A stretch of DNA of 64,000 bases from Variovorax paradoxus B4 (GTDB taxonomy: Bacteria > Pseudomonadota > Gammaproteobacteria > Burkholderiales > Burkholderiaceae_C), in assembly GCF_000463015.1 (NCBI RefSeq), contig NC_022247.1, forward strand, positions 3,782,001-3,846,000, read 5' to 3'. The position numbers and the translations under genes are program-made. Below the pieces are notes generated by a model that worked only from the letters and a program-made list of their open reading frames with translations, was not told the DNA's origin and searched no databases. This document shows, piece by piece, positions 52,170 to 59,746 of the stretch (its first letter is position 1; each line of letters opens with the position of its first letter).

Positions 52170-53450
52170 ATGAAATCCGGACTGAGTTTTCTGATCGCCG
52201 CCAGAAAGTGCGAAATCGACGAGCTGGACCAGCTCGCGCGCACCAGCGACCTGGTCGGCCTGATCGCGCGGCTCGTCCATGCGCTGCAGCGGGAGCGCGG
52301 CATGTCCAACGTGTTTCTCGCCTCGCGCGGCGGCCGCTTCGCCGACCAGCGCGATCCGCAGATCGCCGAATGCCTGGCGCTCGAGCAGGTGGTGCGCGCC
52401 GGATTCGACCAGCTCGAGACCGAAGCGCGCCCCGGCGCCACGGCAGGCAACAGCGCCCGCCTCTTCAGCCGCATTGCCTGGGTGCTTCCCGGGCTGGACG
52501 GCCTGCCTGCCCTGCGCCGCCGCATCGGCGCGCTCGAGCTGACGCCAGCGCAGGCCACCGCCGCGTTCGCGAAGCTCGTTGCCGGCCTGCTGGCGGTGGT
52601 GTTCGAGGCGGCCGATGGCGCCACCGACCCTGAAATCTCGCGCCTGCTGGTGGCGATGTTCAACTTCATGCAGGGCAAGGAATTTGCCGGCCAGGAGCGC
52701 GCCTTCGGCGCCGCGTCGCTGGCGCTGGGGCGCAGCGACGAGGCGCAGCGCCAGCAATGGCTGCACCTCATCGAACTGCAGGAGCGCTGCTTCCAGGTCT
52801 TTACCGATTTTTCGAGCAGCGGCGTGCTGGCGCTCTGGCATCAAGGCCAGTCCGACGCTGCCATGGCCGAGATCGAGCGCCAGCGCCGCTTGAGCGTGAC
52901 CTCTGCCCAGGCGGCCTCGGCGTCCGTTCCCGATCCCCGGCTGAGCCAGGCCTGGTTCGACTGGTGCACGCGCCGCATCGACGCCATGAAAACCGTCGAA
53001 GACCGGCTGGCCGCCGACCTGCGCGAACTCTGTGCCCGCAAGACCGCGCAGGCACGCAGCGAACTGCAGCGATACCAGCAGGTGCTCGGCACCCTTGCGC
53101 CGCAGCCCGAGGGCGCAGTGTTCTTCGACGACGCCGACACCCAGGCCACGGAGCCCGCCCAGTACGGCCGGCACCTCGAGCGCTCGGTGCTCGACATGGT
53201 CCAGGAACAGTCGCGCCGGCTACAGGCCATGGGCGACGAGCTTGAAACCGTGCGCGCCTCCCTCAACGAGCGCAAGCTGGTCGAGCGCGCCAAGGGCCTT
53301 TTGATGGCGCACCGCCGCATGAGCGAGAACGAAGCGCACAAGATGCTGCTCCAGACGGCCATGAACCAGAAGCGCCGCCTCGTCGACGTGGCCGAGTCGA
53401 TGCTCGCCATGGCCGACTACCTGCCGCTCGATGCAGCGCCCCGGCGCTGA
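52170..53450 (+). CDS. nasR: Nitrate-sensing antiterminator, NIT domain plus ANTAR RNA-binding domain (NasR-like)
   Basis: Protein of 426 residues from ATG 52170 ([20 protein letters not shown]). Residues about 20-260 are a helical NIT sensor; [19 protein letters not shown] is its hallmark and holds the Arg that contacts nitrate or nitrite. A coiled stretch leads to the ANTAR domain at about 365-420 ([20 protein letters not shown], then [20 protein letters not shown]), which binds two-hairpin leader RNA. In Klebsiella NasR, nitrate binding lets ANTAR disrupt a terminator ahead of the nas operon. The gene lies immediately before a leader of that design and the nrt operon, so the same role is likely. 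Confidence 0.9.
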
Positions 53451-53481
53451 GGGCCACCCCAAAGCGTTCGAATTGGTGCAG

Positions 53482-53498
53482 CGCACAACAACCGTGCA
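53482..53498 (+). promoter_or_regulatory. NtrC-type enhancer dyad before nrtA
   Basis: CGCAC-N7-GTGCA differs from the TGCAC-N7-GTGCA consensus at one base. It lies 92-108 bp before the -24 element, a normal enhancer distance. It is nested inside a wider inverted repeat (TTCGAATT 53466-53473 and AATTCGAA 53501-53508). Confidence 0.6.
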
Positions 53499-53555
53499 TG
53501 AATTCGAATTTCCGCCCCGAGGCCCTTTCACATATGCCGGCAACCGCTCTTCTGC

Positions 53556-53568
53556 TACCAATTTGATA
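53556..53568 (-). promoter_or_regulatory. IHF-like site between enhancer and promoter
   Basis: TATCAAATTGGTA on the minus strand fits WATCAANNNNTTR with one mismatch. Its position between the NtrC dyad and the sigma-54 promoter is where IHF bends DNA at such promoters. It also lies in a short palindrome (TGCTA...TAGCA). Confidence 0.4.
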
Positions 53569-53589
53569 GCAATCGGCAGCCAGGAAAGC

Positions 53590-53605
53590 TGGCACATAGT
53601 TTGCT
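53590..53605 (+). promoter_or_regulatory. Sigma-54 promoter of the nrt operon
   Basis: TGGCAC-N5-TTGCT is a near-perfect -24/-12 match with GG-N10-GC spacing. Transcription would begin near 53616, giving a leader of about 170 nt before nrtA. Confidence 0.85.
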
Positions 53606-53615
53606 GAAGTAGTAC

Positions 53616-53750
53616 ATGGACCTACGGGTCCCAGGCAGGCAGCACCCAACGGCGGGTGTTGTCCACCGAAACCGGACAAAGGCGTCCCCATCCCGCAAGG
53701 GCTCGTTTTCGAGCAGCCCCTGCGCGGTGCGGACGCCTTTTTGTTTTTGC
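53616..53750 (+). promoter_or_regulatory. ANTAR-type leader RNA with attenuator terminator before nrtA
   Basis: In order: a hairpin GGACC-TACG-GGTCC (53618-53631); a hairpin with 5-bp core CACCC/GGGTG (43-47 and 54-58 of 53600s) and hexaloop AACGGC, which has A at 1 and G at 4 as ANTAR targets require; a hairpin TTGTCC/GGACAA (53659-53679) with a loop starting ACCG; then the terminator, arms AAAGGCGTCC (53678-53687) and GGACGCCTTT (53731-53740) with inner hairpins and a T-run TTGTTTTTGC. The third hairpin shares bases 53678-53679 with the terminator stem. The whole 337-bp gap 53451-53787 is thus regulatory. Confidence 0.7.
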
Positions 53751-53787
53751 TTCTTTCCTTTGTTCGTTCTTCAACCGGAGCCCGCCC

Positions 53788-55032
53788 ATGACCGACCCGC
53801 TGAAAACCAGCCTCAGCCGCCGCCGCGTACTGCAAGCCGCCGCCATTGGCGCCGTGGGAGTCAATCCCGCGCTGCGCGCCGCCGTCTGGGCCCAAGGCTC
53901 CGACAAGCCGGAAAAAGCGGAAGTCAAGATCGGCTTCATCCCGCTGACCGACTGCGCCAGCGTGGTGATGGCTTCGGTGCTGGGCTTCGACAAGAAGTAC
54001 GGCGTGAAGATCGTGCCCAGCAAGGAAGCCAGTTGGGCGGGCGTGCGCGACAAGCTGGTCAACGGCGAGCTCGACATGGCGCATGTGCTCTACGGCCTGG
54101 TCTACGGTGTGCATGTCGGCGTCGGGGGCCCCAAGAAGGACATGGCCGTACTCATGGGCCTGAACCGCAACGGCCAGGCGATCACGCTTTCGAAGGCGCT
54201 GGCGGACAAGGGCGCAGTGGACGCACCTTCGCTCGCCAAGCTCATGGCCAAGGAAAAGCGCGAATACACCTTTGCCGGCACCTTTCCGACGAGCACCCAC
54301 ACGATGTGGCTGAACTATTGGCTGGCTTCGGCCGGCATCAGCCCCGTGGCCGATGCCAAGGTGATCGTGGTGCCGCCTCCGCAGATGGTGGCCAACATGC
54401 GCGTGGGCAACATGGACGGCTTCTGCGTGGGCGAACCCTGGGGCCAGCGCGCCATCATCGACAAGATCGGCGTCACCGCCATCACCACGCAGGACATCTG
54501 GAAGGATCACCCCGAGAAGGTGCTCGGCACGCGGGCCGAGTTCGTCAAGGCCAATCCGAACACCTGCCGTGCCGTGATGATGGCCGTGATGGAGGCCAGC
54601 AAGTGGATCGACGCCAACCTCCAGAACAAGGCCAAGATGGCCGAGGTCGTCGCCGAGAAGTCGTACATCAACACCAGCTCGGACGCCATCAACCAGCGCA
54701 TCCTGGGCCGCTACGAGAACGGCATGGGCAAGAGCTGGGACGATCCCAACCACATGAAGTTCTTCGATGACGGCGCGGTCAACTTTCCGTACCTGTCCGA
54801 TGGCATGTGGTTCCTCACGCAGCACAAGCGCTGGGGCATCCTGAAGGAGCACCCCGACTACCTGGCGGTGGCCAAGCAGATCAATCAGATCGACATGTAC
54901 AAGGACGTCGCCGGCGCCATGAAGGTCAGCGTGCCCAAGGACGCCATGCGAACCAGCAAGCTGATGGACGGCACGGTGTGGGACGGCAAGGACCCCCGGA
55001 AATACGCCGATTCGTTCAAGGTCCACGCCTGA
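53788..55032 (+). CDS. nrtA: Nitrate/nitrite ABC transporter substrate-binding protein, NrtA/CmpA family
   Basis: Protein of 414 residues with a twin-arginine-like signal (SRRRVLQAAAIGAVGVNPAL). The mature type II periplasmic fold begins VKIGFIPLTDCASVVMASVL and includes DMAHVLYGLVYGVHVGVGGP and GEPWGQRAIIDKIG, shared by nitrate (NrtA) and bicarbonate (CmpA) receptors. The NasR gene upstream and nirB downstream make nitrate the likely ligand. It is the first gene of nrtABD, preceded by CGGAG 8 nt before the ATG. Confidence 0.92.
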   Translation: MTDPLKTSLSRRRVLQAAAIGAVGVNPALRAAVWAQGSDKPEKAEVKIGFIPLTDCASVVMASVLGFDKKYGVKIVPSKEASWAGVRDKLVNGELDMAHVLYGLVYGVHVGVGGPKKDMAVLMGLNRNGQAITLSKALADKGAVDAPSLAKLMAKEKREYTFAGTFPTSTHTMWLNYWLASAGISPVADAKVIVVPPPQMVANMRVGNMDGFCVGEPWGQRAIIDKIGVTAITTQDIWKDHPEKVLGTRAEFVKANPNTCRAVMMAVMEASKWIDANLQNKAKMAEVVAEKSYINTSSDAINQRILGRYENGMGKSWDDPNHMKFFDDGAVNFPYLSDGMWFLTQHKRWGILKEHPDYLAVAKQINQIDMYKDVAGAMKVSVPKDAMRTSKLMDGTVWDGKDPRKYADSFKVHA

Positions 55033-55042
55033 GGAGCATGCC

Positions 55043-55972
55043 ATGGTCAGCGCTGTCTTCCACTCTCCTCTCGATACGTCCGGTGCCGTGCCCACCACAG
55101 CGCCGCAGCCGGCAAGGGCCTCGGCACCGGTTGCCGCGGCCGCTTCGGCGCCCGCGGTGGCAAGCGAGCCTCGCATGCTGAAAAAGCGTGACTTCCGCGC
55201 CTTCTGGATGCGCGTGCTGCCGCCGCTCGCGGGCTTCGGCCTGCTGGTGCTGGTCTGGGAACTGGTGGCCATGAAGAGCACCACCGGCTTTCCGTCGCCG
55301 CTGGCCACCTGGCAGCAGGCGCTCACGGTGTTCAGCGACCCGTTCTACAGCAAGGGCCCGAACGACCAGGGCGTGGGCTGGAACGTGCTCTCGTCGCTGC
55401 AGCGCGTGGCGCTGGGTTTCGGGCTGGCCGCGGCGGTCGGTATTCCGGCCGGTTTTGCAATCGGGCGCTTCGAATTCCTTTCGCGCATGTTCAATCCGCT
55501 GATCAGCCTGTTGCGCCCGGTGTCGCCGCTGGCCTGGCTGCCCATCGGCCTCCTGGTGTTCAAGGGCGCCAACCCGGCGGCCATCTGGACCATCTTCATC
55601 TGCTCGATCTGGCCGATGGTGATCAACACCGCCGTCGGCGTGCAGCGGGTTCCGAGCGACTACATGAACGTGGCCAAGGTGCTGAACCTGTCCGAGTGGA
55701 AGATCTTCACCCGGATCCTGTTCCCGGCCGTGCTGCCCTACATGCTGACGGGCGTGCGCCTGGCCGTGGGCACCGCCTGGCTGGTGATCGTCGCGGCCGA
55801 AATGCTCACCGGCGGCGTCGGCATCGGCTTCTGGGTGTGGGACGAGTGGAACAACCTCAACGTCGCCAACATCATCATCGCGATCTTCGTGATCGGCATC
55901 GTCGGCCTGGTGCTGGAGTTCGCGCTCATCAAGCTTGCAACTGCATTCACGTTCGAAGAGGTGAAGTCATGA
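55043..55972 (+). CDS. nrtB: Nitrate ABC transporter permease NrtB
   Basis: Inner-membrane permease of 309 residues, BPD_transp_1 family, six helices after an Ala/Pro-rich cytoplasmic N-terminus of about 40 residues. The first helix reads LPPLAGFGLLVLVWELVAM. The EAA-type loop that touches the ATPase is near VLNLSEWKIFTRILFPAVLP. The start ATG is 10 nt after nrtA's stop; its own stop overlaps the ATPase start (ATGA). Confidence 0.93.
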   Translation: MVSAVFHSPLDTSGAVPTTAPQPARASAPVAAAASAPAVASEPRMLKKRDFRAFWMRVLPPLAGFGLLVLVWELVAMKSTTGFPSPLATWQQALTVFSDPFYSKGPNDQGVGWNVLSSLQRVALGFGLAAAVGIPAGFAIGRFEFLSRMFNPLISLLRPVSPLAWLPIGLLVFKGANPAAIWTIFICSIWPMVINTAVGVQRVPSDYMNVAKVLNLSEWKIFTRILFPAVLPYMLTGVRLAVGTAWLVIVAAEMLTGGVGIGFWVWDEWNNLNVANIIIAIFVIGIVGLVLEFALIKLATAFTFEEVKS

Positions 55973-56778
55973 ACGATGACATGAAATACATCGAGATCCA
56001 TAACGTCGAGCAGCGCTTCAAGACGGCCAAGGGCAGCTTCCTTGCGCTGCAGGGCGTCAACCTGAACGTGGCCAAGGGAGAGTTCGTCACGTTGATCGGC
56101 CATTCCGGCTGCGGCAAGTCGACGCTCCTGAACCTCATCGCCGGCCTGACCACGCCAACGCAGGGCGTGCTGCTGTGCGCGAACAGGGAAATCAAGGGCC
56201 CGGGCCCGGAACGCGCGGTGGTGTTCCAGAACCACTCGCTGCTGCCCTGGCTCACCTGCTTCGAGAACGTGTACCTGGCCGTCGAGCGCGTCTTTGCCGC
56301 CACCGAAGGCAAGGCGCAGCTGCGCGCTCGCACCGATGCGGCGCTTGCGATGGTCGGCCTCTCGGCCGCCGCGCAGAAGCGCCCCGGCGAAATCTCCGGC
56401 GGTATGAAGCAGCGCGTGGGCATTGCGCGCGCGCTGTCGATGGAGCCCAAGGTGCTGCTGATGGACGAGCCCTTCGGCGCCCTCGACGCACTCACGCGCG
56501 CCAAGCTGCAGGACGAGCTGCTCGCCATCGTGCAGAAGACGCATAGCACCGTCGTCATGGTCACGCACGACGTCGACGAGGCGGTGCTGCTCTCCGACCG
56601 CATCGTGATGCTCACCAACGGCCCGGCCGCCACCATCGGCGAGGTGTTGAAAGTCGACATCGCGCGTCCGCGCAACCGTGTCGAACTGGCCGAAGACCCG
56701 GCCTACGTTCACGCCCGCAAGGCGGTGATCGATTTCCTCTACACGCGCCAGGCGCACGTAGAAAAAGTCGCAGCTTGA
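55969..56778 (+). CDS. nrtD: Nitrate ABC transporter ATP-binding protein, NrtD type
   Basis: ATPase of 269 residues. Walker A is GHSGCGKST, the signature ISGGMKQRVGIARALSMEP, and Walker B VLLMDEPFGALDALTR. It lacks the extra receptor-like domain of cyanobacterial NrtC, so one ATPase gene serves as a homodimer. Translationally coupled to nrtB. A dispersed repeat separates its 3' end from the convergent second ANTAR gene. Confidence 0.93.
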   Translation: MNDDMKYIEIHNVEQRFKTAKGSFLALQGVNLNVAKGEFVTLIGHSGCGKSTLLNLIAGLTTPTQGVLLCANREIKGPGPERAVVFQNHSLLPWLTCFENVYLAVERVFAATEGKAQLRARTDAALAMVGLSAAAQKRPGEISGGMKQRVGIARALSMEPKVLLMDEPFGALDALTRAKLQDELLAIVQKTHSTVVMVTHDVDEAVLLSDRIVMLTNGPAATIGEVLKVDIARPRNRVELAEDPAYVHARKAVIDFLYTRQAHVEKVAA

Positions 56779-56918: not shown

Positions 56919-58220
56919 TCAGGACATGATGACCTGCAGGCTGTGCTCGTACCAGGCGGTGAGCCGCTCGAAGGTGTCCACGAGCGCCTCGCTCGAACGC
57001 ACCAGCGTCGCGCGGCCTTCGGGGCTGCCCTGCGCCTGCACGCCGCCGACCAGGCGCAGCCATTCCTCGCGCGCGGCCGCCAGCGCGGCGCGGATCTCGG
57101 GTGAGCTGAGGGGCGCGCGCTCCAGCTCCACCAGCGCGGCTTCGAACTCGTTCATGGTCGGCAGCAGGCGGTCGCGCGACGCCTCTGCCGCAATGGTCGA
57201 TGCGAGCAGTGCGTCCTTCGCGAGGCGCTGCGCGCGCATGCGCTGCCGCCCGCAGATGTTGACGATGCGCAGCGCACGTCGCGCGCCCGAGGCTTCCAGC
57301 GCCTCGGTCATGGCCTCGGCGGCCGATAGCAAGGCCTCGCCGCGCGCGTCGATCTCGGCCAGCCCCTGCGTCGCCGGACGCGCGGCCAGCGACGCGGCGA
57401 GCCCGTTCCAGGCGGCCTGCACTTCGCCCAGCGCAAGCACGCCGGCCGCACCCAGCTCGAGGGTGCCCAGATGATCCAGGTTCTGCTGCACCCGCTCGGT
57501 CGACTGCGTGCGCAGGACCCGCGCGCGCTGCACGTCGATGCCCGACAGCAGCTGCGCCGCCACGCGCACCAGCCGCTGCGAGAGCATGCGCAGCTGCCCG
57601 GCGCGGTTGATTGCATCGGCCCACTGCGCGGCTTCGATCACGGAACGCGACACCTCGCCCAGCCGCAGGTTGGCATGCATCGCGGCGCCGCGCAGCAGGC
57701 CGAAGGCTTCGTCTTCGCCGATTCCACGCGCCGACATCAGCAGGCCCTTGGCGCGGTCGACCCACTTGCGCTCGTCCATGCGCGTGCGCAGGGCGTCGAG
57801 CTCGGTGCGCAGCGCGGCCTCGCGCTGCCAACGGGCCTGAGCACGGGCGGTCAGCGCCGCGAGCGACAGGGCGTCCAGGGTGTCGATGGGTGCCCAGGCA
57901 TGCACGCCGAGCGCGACCAGCGCCTCGTGCTGTTCGTCGGCCAGCGGCGCACTGGCCAGGCTCAGCGCGCAAGGCGGCACCCCGCCCCACGCCTGCAATG
58001 CATCGACGAGCGCCTGCAGCTGACCCGCCGGCTCCGGCAGATGGACCAAGGCCTGTTGCGGTGCAAGCGCCCCCACCTGCTGCACCAGCGTGTGGCAGGT
58101 GGCCCGTCCGAGCACAGTGGCATTCGCACCCTCCAACGCCAGCCGCAGCTCCTCCGGCAGGTCCGGCAAGGGCGCGGAGCCGGCGAATTCATTGGGCAGA
58201 ACGGCGAGAAGAGAAATCAT
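56919..58220 (-). CDS. Second ANTAR-domain regulator: pseudo-receiver, ANTAR and two NarX/PilJ-type nitrate-pocket motifs
   Basis: Protein of 433 residues from ATG 58220 (MISLLAVLPNEFAG). Residues 1-130 resemble a NasT-type receiver but lack the phosphorylation Asp (the site reads QQALVHLPEP). The ANTAR domain is at about 145-197 (MDERKWVDRAKGLLMSARGI; RLGEVSRSVIEAAQW). The rest is helical and has two copies of the P-box-like nitrate motif: AINRAGQLRMLSQR (203-216) and IVNICGRQRMRAQR (320-333), as in the type IV pili/NarX sensor domain. It has no membrane helix, so it should sense nitrate in the cytoplasm and bind RNA. Which leader it controls is unknown; no ANTAR-type terminator is clear before narK or nirB. 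Confidence 0.88.
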   Translation of the reverse strand: MISLLAVLPNEFAGSAPLPDLPEELRLALEGANATVLGRATCHTLVQQVGALAPQQALVHLPEPAGQLQALVDALQAWGGVPPCALSLASAPLADEQHEALVALGVHAWAPIDTLDALSLAALTARAQARWQREAALRTELDALRTRMDERKWVDRAKGLLMSARGIGEDEAFGLLRGAAMHANLRLGEVSRSVIEAAQWADAINRAGQLRMLSQRLVRVAAQLLSGIDVQRARVLRTQSTERVQQNLDHLGTLELGAAGVLALGEVQAAWNGLAASLAARPATQGLAEIDARGEALLSAAEAMTEALEASGARRALRIVNICGRQRMRAQRLAKDALLASTIAAEASRDRLLPTMNEFEAALVELERAPLSSPEIRAALAAAREEWLRLVGGVQAQGSPEGRATLVRSSEALVDTFERLTAWYEHSLQVIMS

Positions 58221-58350
58221 GGCGAGGTGATGGAGGGCAGCGGAAGCATAGGCCACGCCCGCGCGTTTTCGCAGGCACGCCTCTTGCATCTATCGGGGTG
58301 CGGTGTAACGAAGCACCGCTTTGGTGAGGCTGCAGGCTCCTGCATCCATC

Positions 58351-58367
58351 CTGGCATTGCCTATGCC
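58351..58367 (+). promoter_or_regulatory. Weak sigma-54-like element before the MFS nitrate transporter
   Basis: CTGGCATTGCCTATGCC keeps the GG-N10-GC spacing but departs from TGGCACG and TTGC at several bases. The same bases can form a CTGGCAT/ATGCCGG hairpin, so the function is uncertain. It is the best promoter-like site in the 257-bp gap 58221-58477. Confidence 0.35.
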
Positions 58368-58477
58368 GGGAAACACCCCCACGCCGACAGCGTCCGCTGC
58401 CGGCATCCCGCCCCAACCCCGTCCGTCGACACGGCTCCCGAAGAGCCGCGCCGCGGCATTTCGCACGATTGAACGCC

Positions 58478-59746
58478 ATGTCCAGCTTCAAGACCTTTCT
58501 GCATTCCGGCCACGGGCCGACGCTGTTTGCGGCCTTTCTGTACTTCTCGTTCTCGTGCTGCATCTGGGTGCTCAACGGCGCCATGGCGCCCTTCATCGGC
58601 GAGACCTTCGACCTCTCGCCCGCGCAGAAGGGCCTGATGCTGTCGGTGCCGATCATCGCGGGCGCGCTGATGCGCTTTCCGCTCGGCATCCTGTCGCAGT
58701 ACATCGGCCGCAAGAACGCCACGTTGGTCGAGATGGGCCTGATTGCGGTCGCCATGCTGTTCGGCTTCTTCTTCGTGAAGAGCTTCAACGACCTGCTCGC
58801 CATGGGCGTGCTGCTGGGCATTGCCGGCGCGAGCTTCGGCGTGGCGCTGTCGCTGGGCTCGGGCTGGTTCCCGCCGCAGCACAAGGGTCTCGCGATGGGC
58901 CTGGTGGGTGCCGGCAACGTGGGCACGGCAGTGTCGGTGCTGGTGGCGCCGCCGCTCGCGCAGTGGCTCGGCTGGCAGGCGGTGTACGGTGTGGCGGCCG
59001 GCGCCATCCTCGTGCCGATGATCGTGATGATCGTGTTCGCCAAGGAACCGCCCGACGTCGACAGCCACGCCAGCTTCCGCGAACACATCGCCTGCCTGTT
59101 CGAGAAAGACGGCTGGGTGTTCAGCCTGATCTACGGCGTGACCTTCGGCGGCTTCATCGGGCTCACCACCTTCCTGCCCTCCTACTACTACGACCAGTTC
59201 GGCGTGAGCAAGGTGCAGGCCGGACAGCTGACGATGCTCGCAGCCTTCATGGGCGCCGCCGTGCGCATCGTGGGCGGCTGGATCTCCGACCGCTGGGGCG
59301 GCGTCAACACGCTGACCGTGGTGCTGCTGGTGGTGGCCGTCGGGCTCGTGCTGGTAGGCATCTCGTCGGGGTCGCTCGCGCTCACCACGCTGCTGCTGAT
59401 CCTGTGCTTTGCCGCCCTGGGCGCGGGCAACGGCGCGCTGTTCCAGCTGGTGCCGCTGCGCTGGCCCACGAGCACCGCGGTGGCCGGCTCGATGATCGGC
59501 GAGATCGGCGCGCTGGGCGGCGGCCTGGTGCCCAACGCCATGGGCCTGTCGAAGCAGTACCTGGGCAGCTATGTCTGGGGCTTCGTGTTCTTCGGTGCGC
59601 TGTCGCTGGTGATGCTCGGCGTCATGCGCGTGATGCAAATCCGCTGGACCCGCACCTGGGCCGAGAAAGGTGGCCGGGCGCGCACCTCGCCCCACGCTGC
59701 CGAAGCCAAGTACGTGCCCCCAGCGAGGAAGACGGCACGGCCATGA
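58478..59746 (+). CDS. MFS nitrate/nitrite transporter, NarK/NasA family
   Basis: Inner-membrane transporter of 422 residues, 12 helices, from ATG 58478 (MSSFKTFLHSGHGPTLF). The nitrate-signature glycine-rich helices are GIAGASFGVALSLGSGWFP and FAALGAGNGALFQLVPLRWP. LMRFPLGILSQYIGRKNATL carries the substrate Arg and the MFS motif A region. It gives a second uptake route beside the ABC importer, probably proton-coupled. It diverges from the second ANTAR gene. Confidence 0.92.
   Translation: MSSFKTFLHSGHGPTLFAAFLYFSFSCCIWVLNGAMAPFIGETFDLSPAQKGLMLSVPIIAGALMRFPLGILSQYIGRKNATLVEMGLIAVAMLFGFFFVKSFNDLLAMGVLLGIAGASFGVALSLGSGWFPPQHKGLAMGLVGAGNVGTAVSVLVAPPLAQWLGWQAVYGVAAGAILVPMIVMIVFAKEPPDVDSHASFREHIACLFEKDGWVFSLIYGVTFGGFIGLTTFLPSYYYDQFGVSKVQAGQLTMLAAFMGAAVRIVGGWISDRWGGVNTLTVVLLVVAVGLVLVGISSGSLALTTLLLILCFAALGAGNGALFQLVPLRWPTSTAVAGSMIGEIGALGGGLVPNAMGLSKQYLGSYVWGFVFFGALSLVMLGVMRVMQIRWTRTWAEKGGRARTSPHAAEAKYVPPARKTARP

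Follow-up and report, generated by a model that had tools for sequence, protein, structure and literature searches.

What controls the transcription of the nitrate importer genes nrtABC in Variovorax paradoxus B4? The operon lies in a 64-kb stretch of DNA, here called the window (coordinates in Table 1). A first-pass annotation, made from the sequence alone, had described the region before nrtA as a two-step nitrogen switch, in which NtrC and sigma-54 start the RNA and nitrate-bound NasR prevents its premature termination. This two-step logic is supported by the conservation and covariation described below, by a NIT-ANTAR gene directly upstream and by the finding that the genome encodes both NtrC and sigma-54, and positions 53482-53742 very probably constitute a leader gated by nitrogen limitation and nitrate. 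The NtrC-type dyad, the IHF-like sequence, the sigma-54 box, the first hairpin and the terminator follow each other in functional order and lie where they had been placed, save that the end of the terminator moves from 53740 to 53742. The annotation had also set the locus apart from Klebsiella nasF by its position before an ABC importer; this contrast is weak, as the Klebsiella nasFED operon itself encodes an ABC nitrate importer. Klebsiella nasF is, moreover, under sigma-54/NtrC control.

Table 1. Features of the nrtA leader and of the surrounding nitrate cluster (positions in the window).
Feature	Position	Strand	Details
NasR-like gene (NIT + ANTAR)	52170-53450	+	directly upstream of the leader
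NtrC-type dyad	53482-53498	+	GCAC-N7-GTGC; exact in 60/78 loci
IHF-like site	53556-53568	-	TATCAAATTGGTA, a single mismatch to WATCAANNNNTTR
sigma-54 (-24/-12) promoter box	53590-53605	+	TGGCACATAGTTTGCT; TGGCA-N6/7-TGC in 78/78 scored loci
H0, 5' hairpin	53618-53631	+	GGACC-UACG-GGUCC; near the expected RNA start
H1, first ANTAR hairpin	53638-53663 (core 53641-53660)	+	loop AACGGC 53648-53653; A1 53648, G4 53651
H2, second ANTAR hairpin	53674-53687	+	GGAC[AAAGGC]GUCC; loop 53678-53683; A1 53678, G4 53681
Intrinsic terminator	53678-53742	+	5' arm AAAGGCGUCC; 3' arm GGACGCC 53731-53737, then T-run
nrtA, nitrate-binding-type protein (NMT1_2)	53788-55032	+
nrtB, nitrate ABC permease	55043-55972	+	TIGR01183, 246.2 bits (cut-off 209.05)
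nrtC/D, nitrate ABC ATPase	55969-56778	+	TIGR01184, 343.3 bits (cut-off 291.8)
PilJ-ANTAR protein	56919-58289	-	pseudo-receiver-like front, ANTAR, two PilJ-type sensor repeats
narK leader	58273-58478	+	sigma-54-like box, single U[AACGAA]G hexaloop hairpin 58300-58319

Relatives of the locus were collected by a protein search with the nrtA-encoded binding protein, of which the best 80 loci were kept. Of these, 77 were scored together with the window (78 in all); L037 was left out because it came without upstream DNA, and L061 and L062 because no H2 was called by the script. In L061, CCGACAAAGGTGTC is nonetheless visible by eye. In L062 (Rhizobacter sp. Root404), the nrtA leader has a sigma-54 box and a single hexaloop, AACGGC, while H2 is missing; no ANTAR gene lies upstream, and a PilJ-ANTAR-like protein is encoded downstream. 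Another record, L023, is titled as an Akkermansia muciniphila MAG and carries an nrtA locus that is 80% identical, with the same leader; it is probably a mislabelled bin.

An NtrC-activated sigma-54 promoter combines a -24/-12 box with an upstream NtrC-type dyad, and both are found here. Searched for 40-160 nt upstream of the box, the dyad is present in 69/78 loci when at most one mismatch is allowed, as compared to 0/234 equal-length pieces taken from inside nrtA, whether exact or with one mismatch. In the window, the dyad is embedded in an imperfect inverted repeat of greater length, 53468-53508, of the form TTCGAATTGGTGCA ... TGCATGAATTCGAA. Matches to the IHF consensus with at most one mismatch occur in 14/78 loci versus 28/780 mononucleotide shuffles, and their position is similar in several Variovorax loci, which lends modest support to a putative IHF site. 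Consistent with such a promoter, the genome of strain B4 contains one ntrC match over cut-off and one sigma-54 gene, and the usual spacing to the sigma-54 box would place the RNA start at about 53615.

ANTAR target RNAs are defined by a tandem of two hairpins, each with at least three base pairs and a loop of six bases in which position 1 is A and position 4 is G (PMC3369931). The first-pass annotation recognized H1 as such a hairpin, followed by a second one, 53661-53677, with a 9-nt loop, and presented the latter as a departure from the known kind; it was said to share two bases with the terminator stem. This was a misassignment. Scanning 53451-53787 for A1/G4 hexaloops on stems of at least 4 bp returns exactly two, with loops starting at 53648 and 53678, and the second belongs to H2, a conserved hairpin whose canonical A1/G4 hexaloop is closed by a C-G pair and which has ten bases, 53678-53687, in common with the 5' arm of the terminator. 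Reassigning the second hairpin to 53674-53687 thus makes the departure disappear. The hairpin with the 9-nt loop was examined as the second ANTAR hairpin and rejected: although its formation in the window is feasible (-3.0 kcal/mol), it has no hexaloop, it occupies the very GGAC that H2 uses, which the annotation had paired with 53661-53664, and its four pairs are retained in only 3/48 aligned leaders, part of this loss perhaps reflecting misalignment, as the linker is gappy. That it is nevertheless the working second hairpin is the least probable of the alternatives considered.

With H2 in place, the tandem of H1 and H2 conforms to this definition, and both loops have the C-G closing pair described in PMC7496416, as C[AACGGC]G in H1 and C[AAAGGC]G in H2. 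In the eut system, 5-12 nt between the hairpins are functional while 3 and 14 nt impair function (PMC3369931); here, 10 nt lie between 53663 and 53674 with the 10-bp H1 stem, and the linker becomes 13 nt long when H1 is restricted to its 7-bp core. Finally, H2 both overlaps and excludes the intrinsic terminator. Judged by its sequence, the corrected leader therefore has the testable features of an ANTAR antiterminator.

This combination exceeds what chance would give. The window contains 66 C-G-closed A1/G4 hexaloops on both strands, of which only two neighbouring pairs are 18-45 nt apart, and the sole pair with a following T4 run is that of the nrtA leader. In addition, segment 53601-53787 folds 4.3 standard deviations better than its dinucleotide shuffles. 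H2 on its own is weak, at -4.0 kcal/mol as compared to -36.0 kcal/mol for the terminator (means across loci, -3.7 and -35.9 kcal/mol), so a protein that stabilizes it would have to act before the terminator is made.

Among the 78 loci, 63 have a strict pair, for which H1 and H2 must each carry an A1/G4 loop on a stem of four or more uninterrupted pairs. The 15 misses consist of four with G at H2 loop position 1 and 11 in which the H1 stem is too short or broken; as judged by eye, three pairs beside the loop persist in 10 of these 11 and none in the other (L057). H1 loops are AACGGC (51), AATGGC (12), AAAGGC (9) or others (6), while H2 is GGAC[AAAGGC]GTCC in 54 loci, GAAC[AAAGGC]GTTC in 10, GGAC[AACGGC]GTCC in five and another sequence in nine, including the four with G at position 1. 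A competing terminator, in which one arm can pair with the 3' half of H2 and a T-run follows, is found in 77/78 loci.

Covariation was assessed on an alignment of 48 of the 78 leaders, window included. In these, 97.9% of the cells pair, versus at most 49.2% when the structure is slid along the alignment, and in 73 cells both partners have changed, whereas shuffles average 18.8 and 0/500 of them reach as high. The number of further pair types, 14 versus 14.5 in shuffles of the same 48 leaders, is not above chance. Support from covariation comes mostly from H1; that for H2 rests on one covarying pair, changed from G-C to A-U in 8/48 leaders with none broken, its three other pairs being invariant. 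A model, R1, built from the same 48 leaders and hence with the window among its training rows, finds the nrtA leader in the B4 genome at E 1.6e-15, the next match being at E 0.07, and has matches in 59/61 genomes of the genus and 32/150 of the order.

The upstream NasR-like gene has an open frame from 51978, and its likely start is the ATG at 52170, where relatives begin aligning. Its product unites, as NasR does, a NIT domain with an ANTAR domain (Pfam E 7.3e-52 and 3.4e-17, both over cut-off) and matches the NasR of PDB 4akk at E 3.4e-45. In PMC7496416, R340, K341, K345, K347 and W362 of NasR are listed as RNA-contact residues, and loss of W362 harms RNA binding; with a numbering offset of 27 that we set ourselves, the corresponding residues of the window protein are R, K, R, K and H. 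Three other ANTAR proteins are encoded in the B4 genome: PilJ-ANTAR and two whose genes neighbour receptor-like genes and which are read as AmiR-like. No NasT was seen among the four.

Across the 80 loci, an ANTAR gene lies upstream of the nrtA leader in 66, whereas none was seen in the upstream DNA examined of the other 14. It encodes a NasR in 24 loci and a short ANTAR protein in 42, the latter probably NasT-like by length and sequence; a Pfam scan of one of these 42 (from L008) returned ANTAR, with Response_reg below cut-off. One RNA design thus goes with two protein architectures. These genes also bear on the simpler explanation that an NtrC/sigma-54 promoter is followed by an attenuator that is constitutive or otherwise controlled, with no ANTAR protein involved. 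While the strong terminator alone would account for part of the fold, the presence of a NasR or short ANTAR gene in 66/80 loci and the retention of H1 and of the A1/G4 loops while the stems covary make this explanation very improbable.

A further hairpin, H0, was absent from the first-pass list. Near the expected 5' end, the 78 leaders show a C-G-closed A1/G4 hexaloop in 26 cases, another six-base loop in 25, another loop in 10 and none by script in 17. H0 of the window is not of the A1/G4 type, its UACG being counted among the six-base loops as CUACGG. The A1/G4 hexaloop form is found in 21/42 leaders beside NasT-like genes versus 3/25 beside NasR (Fisher p 0.0017, kinship ignored). Three A1/G4 loops are present in L221, the sole match over cut-off to the Rfam family P11, located upstream of the nirB of a different bacterium; the script called two of these loops, and the third, on an interrupted stem, was recognized by eye. 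Two of the matches to Rfam narK RNA (L093 and L096) also show a third hexaloop. No description of a three-hairpin ANTAR leader was found in the literature searched, a set with the primary NalA papers and most subscription papers outside it.

The nitrate cluster also encodes the PilJ-ANTAR protein, which could act on the same nrtA leader, together with NasR or in its place. Its ANTAR domain is over cut-off, its sensor part resembles nitrate receptors, with the invariant NxxGxxRMxxQR motif in each PilJ-type repeat, and its gene belongs to the same cluster as the leader. However, strong PilJ-ANTAR matches are confined to 45/61 genomes of the genus (with two long ones in 200 genomes of the order), and the nrtA leader is retained in 15 of the 16 genus genomes that have none, G156 alone being devoid of both. 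The PilJ-ANTAR gene instead accompanies another RNA element, present in 45/45 genomes with the gene and in 0/16 without. An action of this protein on the nrtA leader is therefore improbable, and NasR remains the preferred partner of H1 and H2.

The leader before narK, for which no Rfam match was obtained at E ≤1, differs in its single hexaloop. Its core is invariant in 30/30 loci (L097-L126), chosen as the highest scorers among the 45 genomes with a PilJ-ANTAR gene. In 26 of these 30, the number of nucleotides from the hairpin to the narK ATG is divisible by three, though no start codon of a leader peptide was seen. The alignments made here comprised 17 PilJ-ANTAR proteins and 27 and 36 narK- or nirB-type leaders; six nirB-type copies among the leaders were found by exact pattern, so that their invariant core is by choice. 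Elsewhere in the B4 genome (L196, C2:2869700-2874700), a narK-type leader has been duplicated in front of a second nirB, whose protein is 99.9% identical to the NirB of the window; no such leader was seen directly before the window's own nirB, the window having a single occurrence of the core. Two genomes of the genus with no strong PilJ-ANTAR match (G120 and G141, loci L191 and L192) carry an additional two-hexaloop leader of the canonical type, in front of nirB.

The PilJ-ANTAR protein and the conserved narK leader, with its different hexaloop, may represent a second, new circuit. It is possible, but we put it forward tentatively, that the nitrate cluster of the window comprises two parallel antitermination circuits, in which NasR would read the hairpin pair of nrtABC and PilJ-ANTAR the leader of narK and of the second nirB, with hexaloops serving as exchangeable addresses. 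The address of NasR would then be C[AACGGC]G / C[AAAGGC]G and that of PilJ-ANTAR U[AACGAA]G. In such a scheme, PilJ-ANTAR would be a soluble one-component regulator with domains in the unusual order pseudo-receiver, ANTAR, two PilJ/McpN-type repeats, and the RNA design of the nrtA leader would stay while NasT-like and NasR proteins are swapped, the third hexaloop occurring mostly beside NasT-like genes. If true, a single cell would contain two ANTAR proteins of the nitrate type that recognize different RNAs, providing a direct route to asking how ANTAR proteins choose their hairpins.

For the nrtA leader itself, homology suggests the following sequence of events. Under nitrogen limitation, NtrC, probably with the aid of DNA bending by IHF, would activate the sigma-54 promoter at 53590, and the RNA would by default fold into the terminator. 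When nitrate is present, the NasR-like protein, as its presumed sensor, would bind the hexaloops of H1 and H2; since H2 uses the terminator's own 5' arm, the terminator could not form and nrtABC would be transcribed.

How does this leader relate to catalogued RNAs? A scan of the whole 64-kb window against Rfam at curated cut-offs gave no matches. Below them, 53578-53737 matches P11 (RF00625) at 30.1 bits (cut-off 70; E 9.9e-5 in 601 bases, 0.003 in 18 kb) and 53591-53688 matches narK RNA (RF03032) at 25.4 bits (cut-off 43.2); both scores are under the gathering thresholds that define membership. Both models start at or near the sigma-54 box and contain the H2 hairpin, as GGACAAAGGCGUCC or CGACAAAGACGUCG. 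P11, whose model has GGACAAAGGCGUCC and the sigma-54 box, is the NalA leader. In the narK RNA model, the sigma-54 box is at one end and CGACAAAGACGUCG, an H2-type hexaloop, at the other, and the printed part of the structure line leaves the CGACAAAGACGUCG hairpin unpaired. In 120 genomes of the order, narK RNA has 12 matches (L085-L096), all below cut-off, and H1 and H2 hexaloops are present in 12/12; narK RNA is thus best read as an ANTAR leader, which suggests a function for this family, and our literature search found no publication naming it.

Among known systems, the EutV leaders of Enterococcus faecalis share the two-hexaloop motif overlapping a terminator, but there the regulator is a phosphorylated two-component protein and the genes are for ethanolamine (PMC3369931). 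The NalA leader of nirBD in Pseudomonas combines an NtrC/sigma-54 start with ANTAR antitermination, with NasT and nirBD in place of the NasR and nrtABC found here (PMC12830290). The nasF leader of Klebsiella oxytoca, with NasR, has in common with the window a NIT-ANTAR protein and a nitrate assimilation operon, two A1/G4 hexaloop hairpins with C-G closing pairs, and a second hairpin that is mutually exclusive with the terminator; the differences are the bacterium, the nrtABC genes and the extra 5' hairpin H0 (PMC3369931, PMC7496416). The switch is therefore of an already known kind, to which the corrected second hairpin makes it a close fit, and nitrate antitermination, worked out in a few model organisms, would now extend to the nitrate import of this genus.
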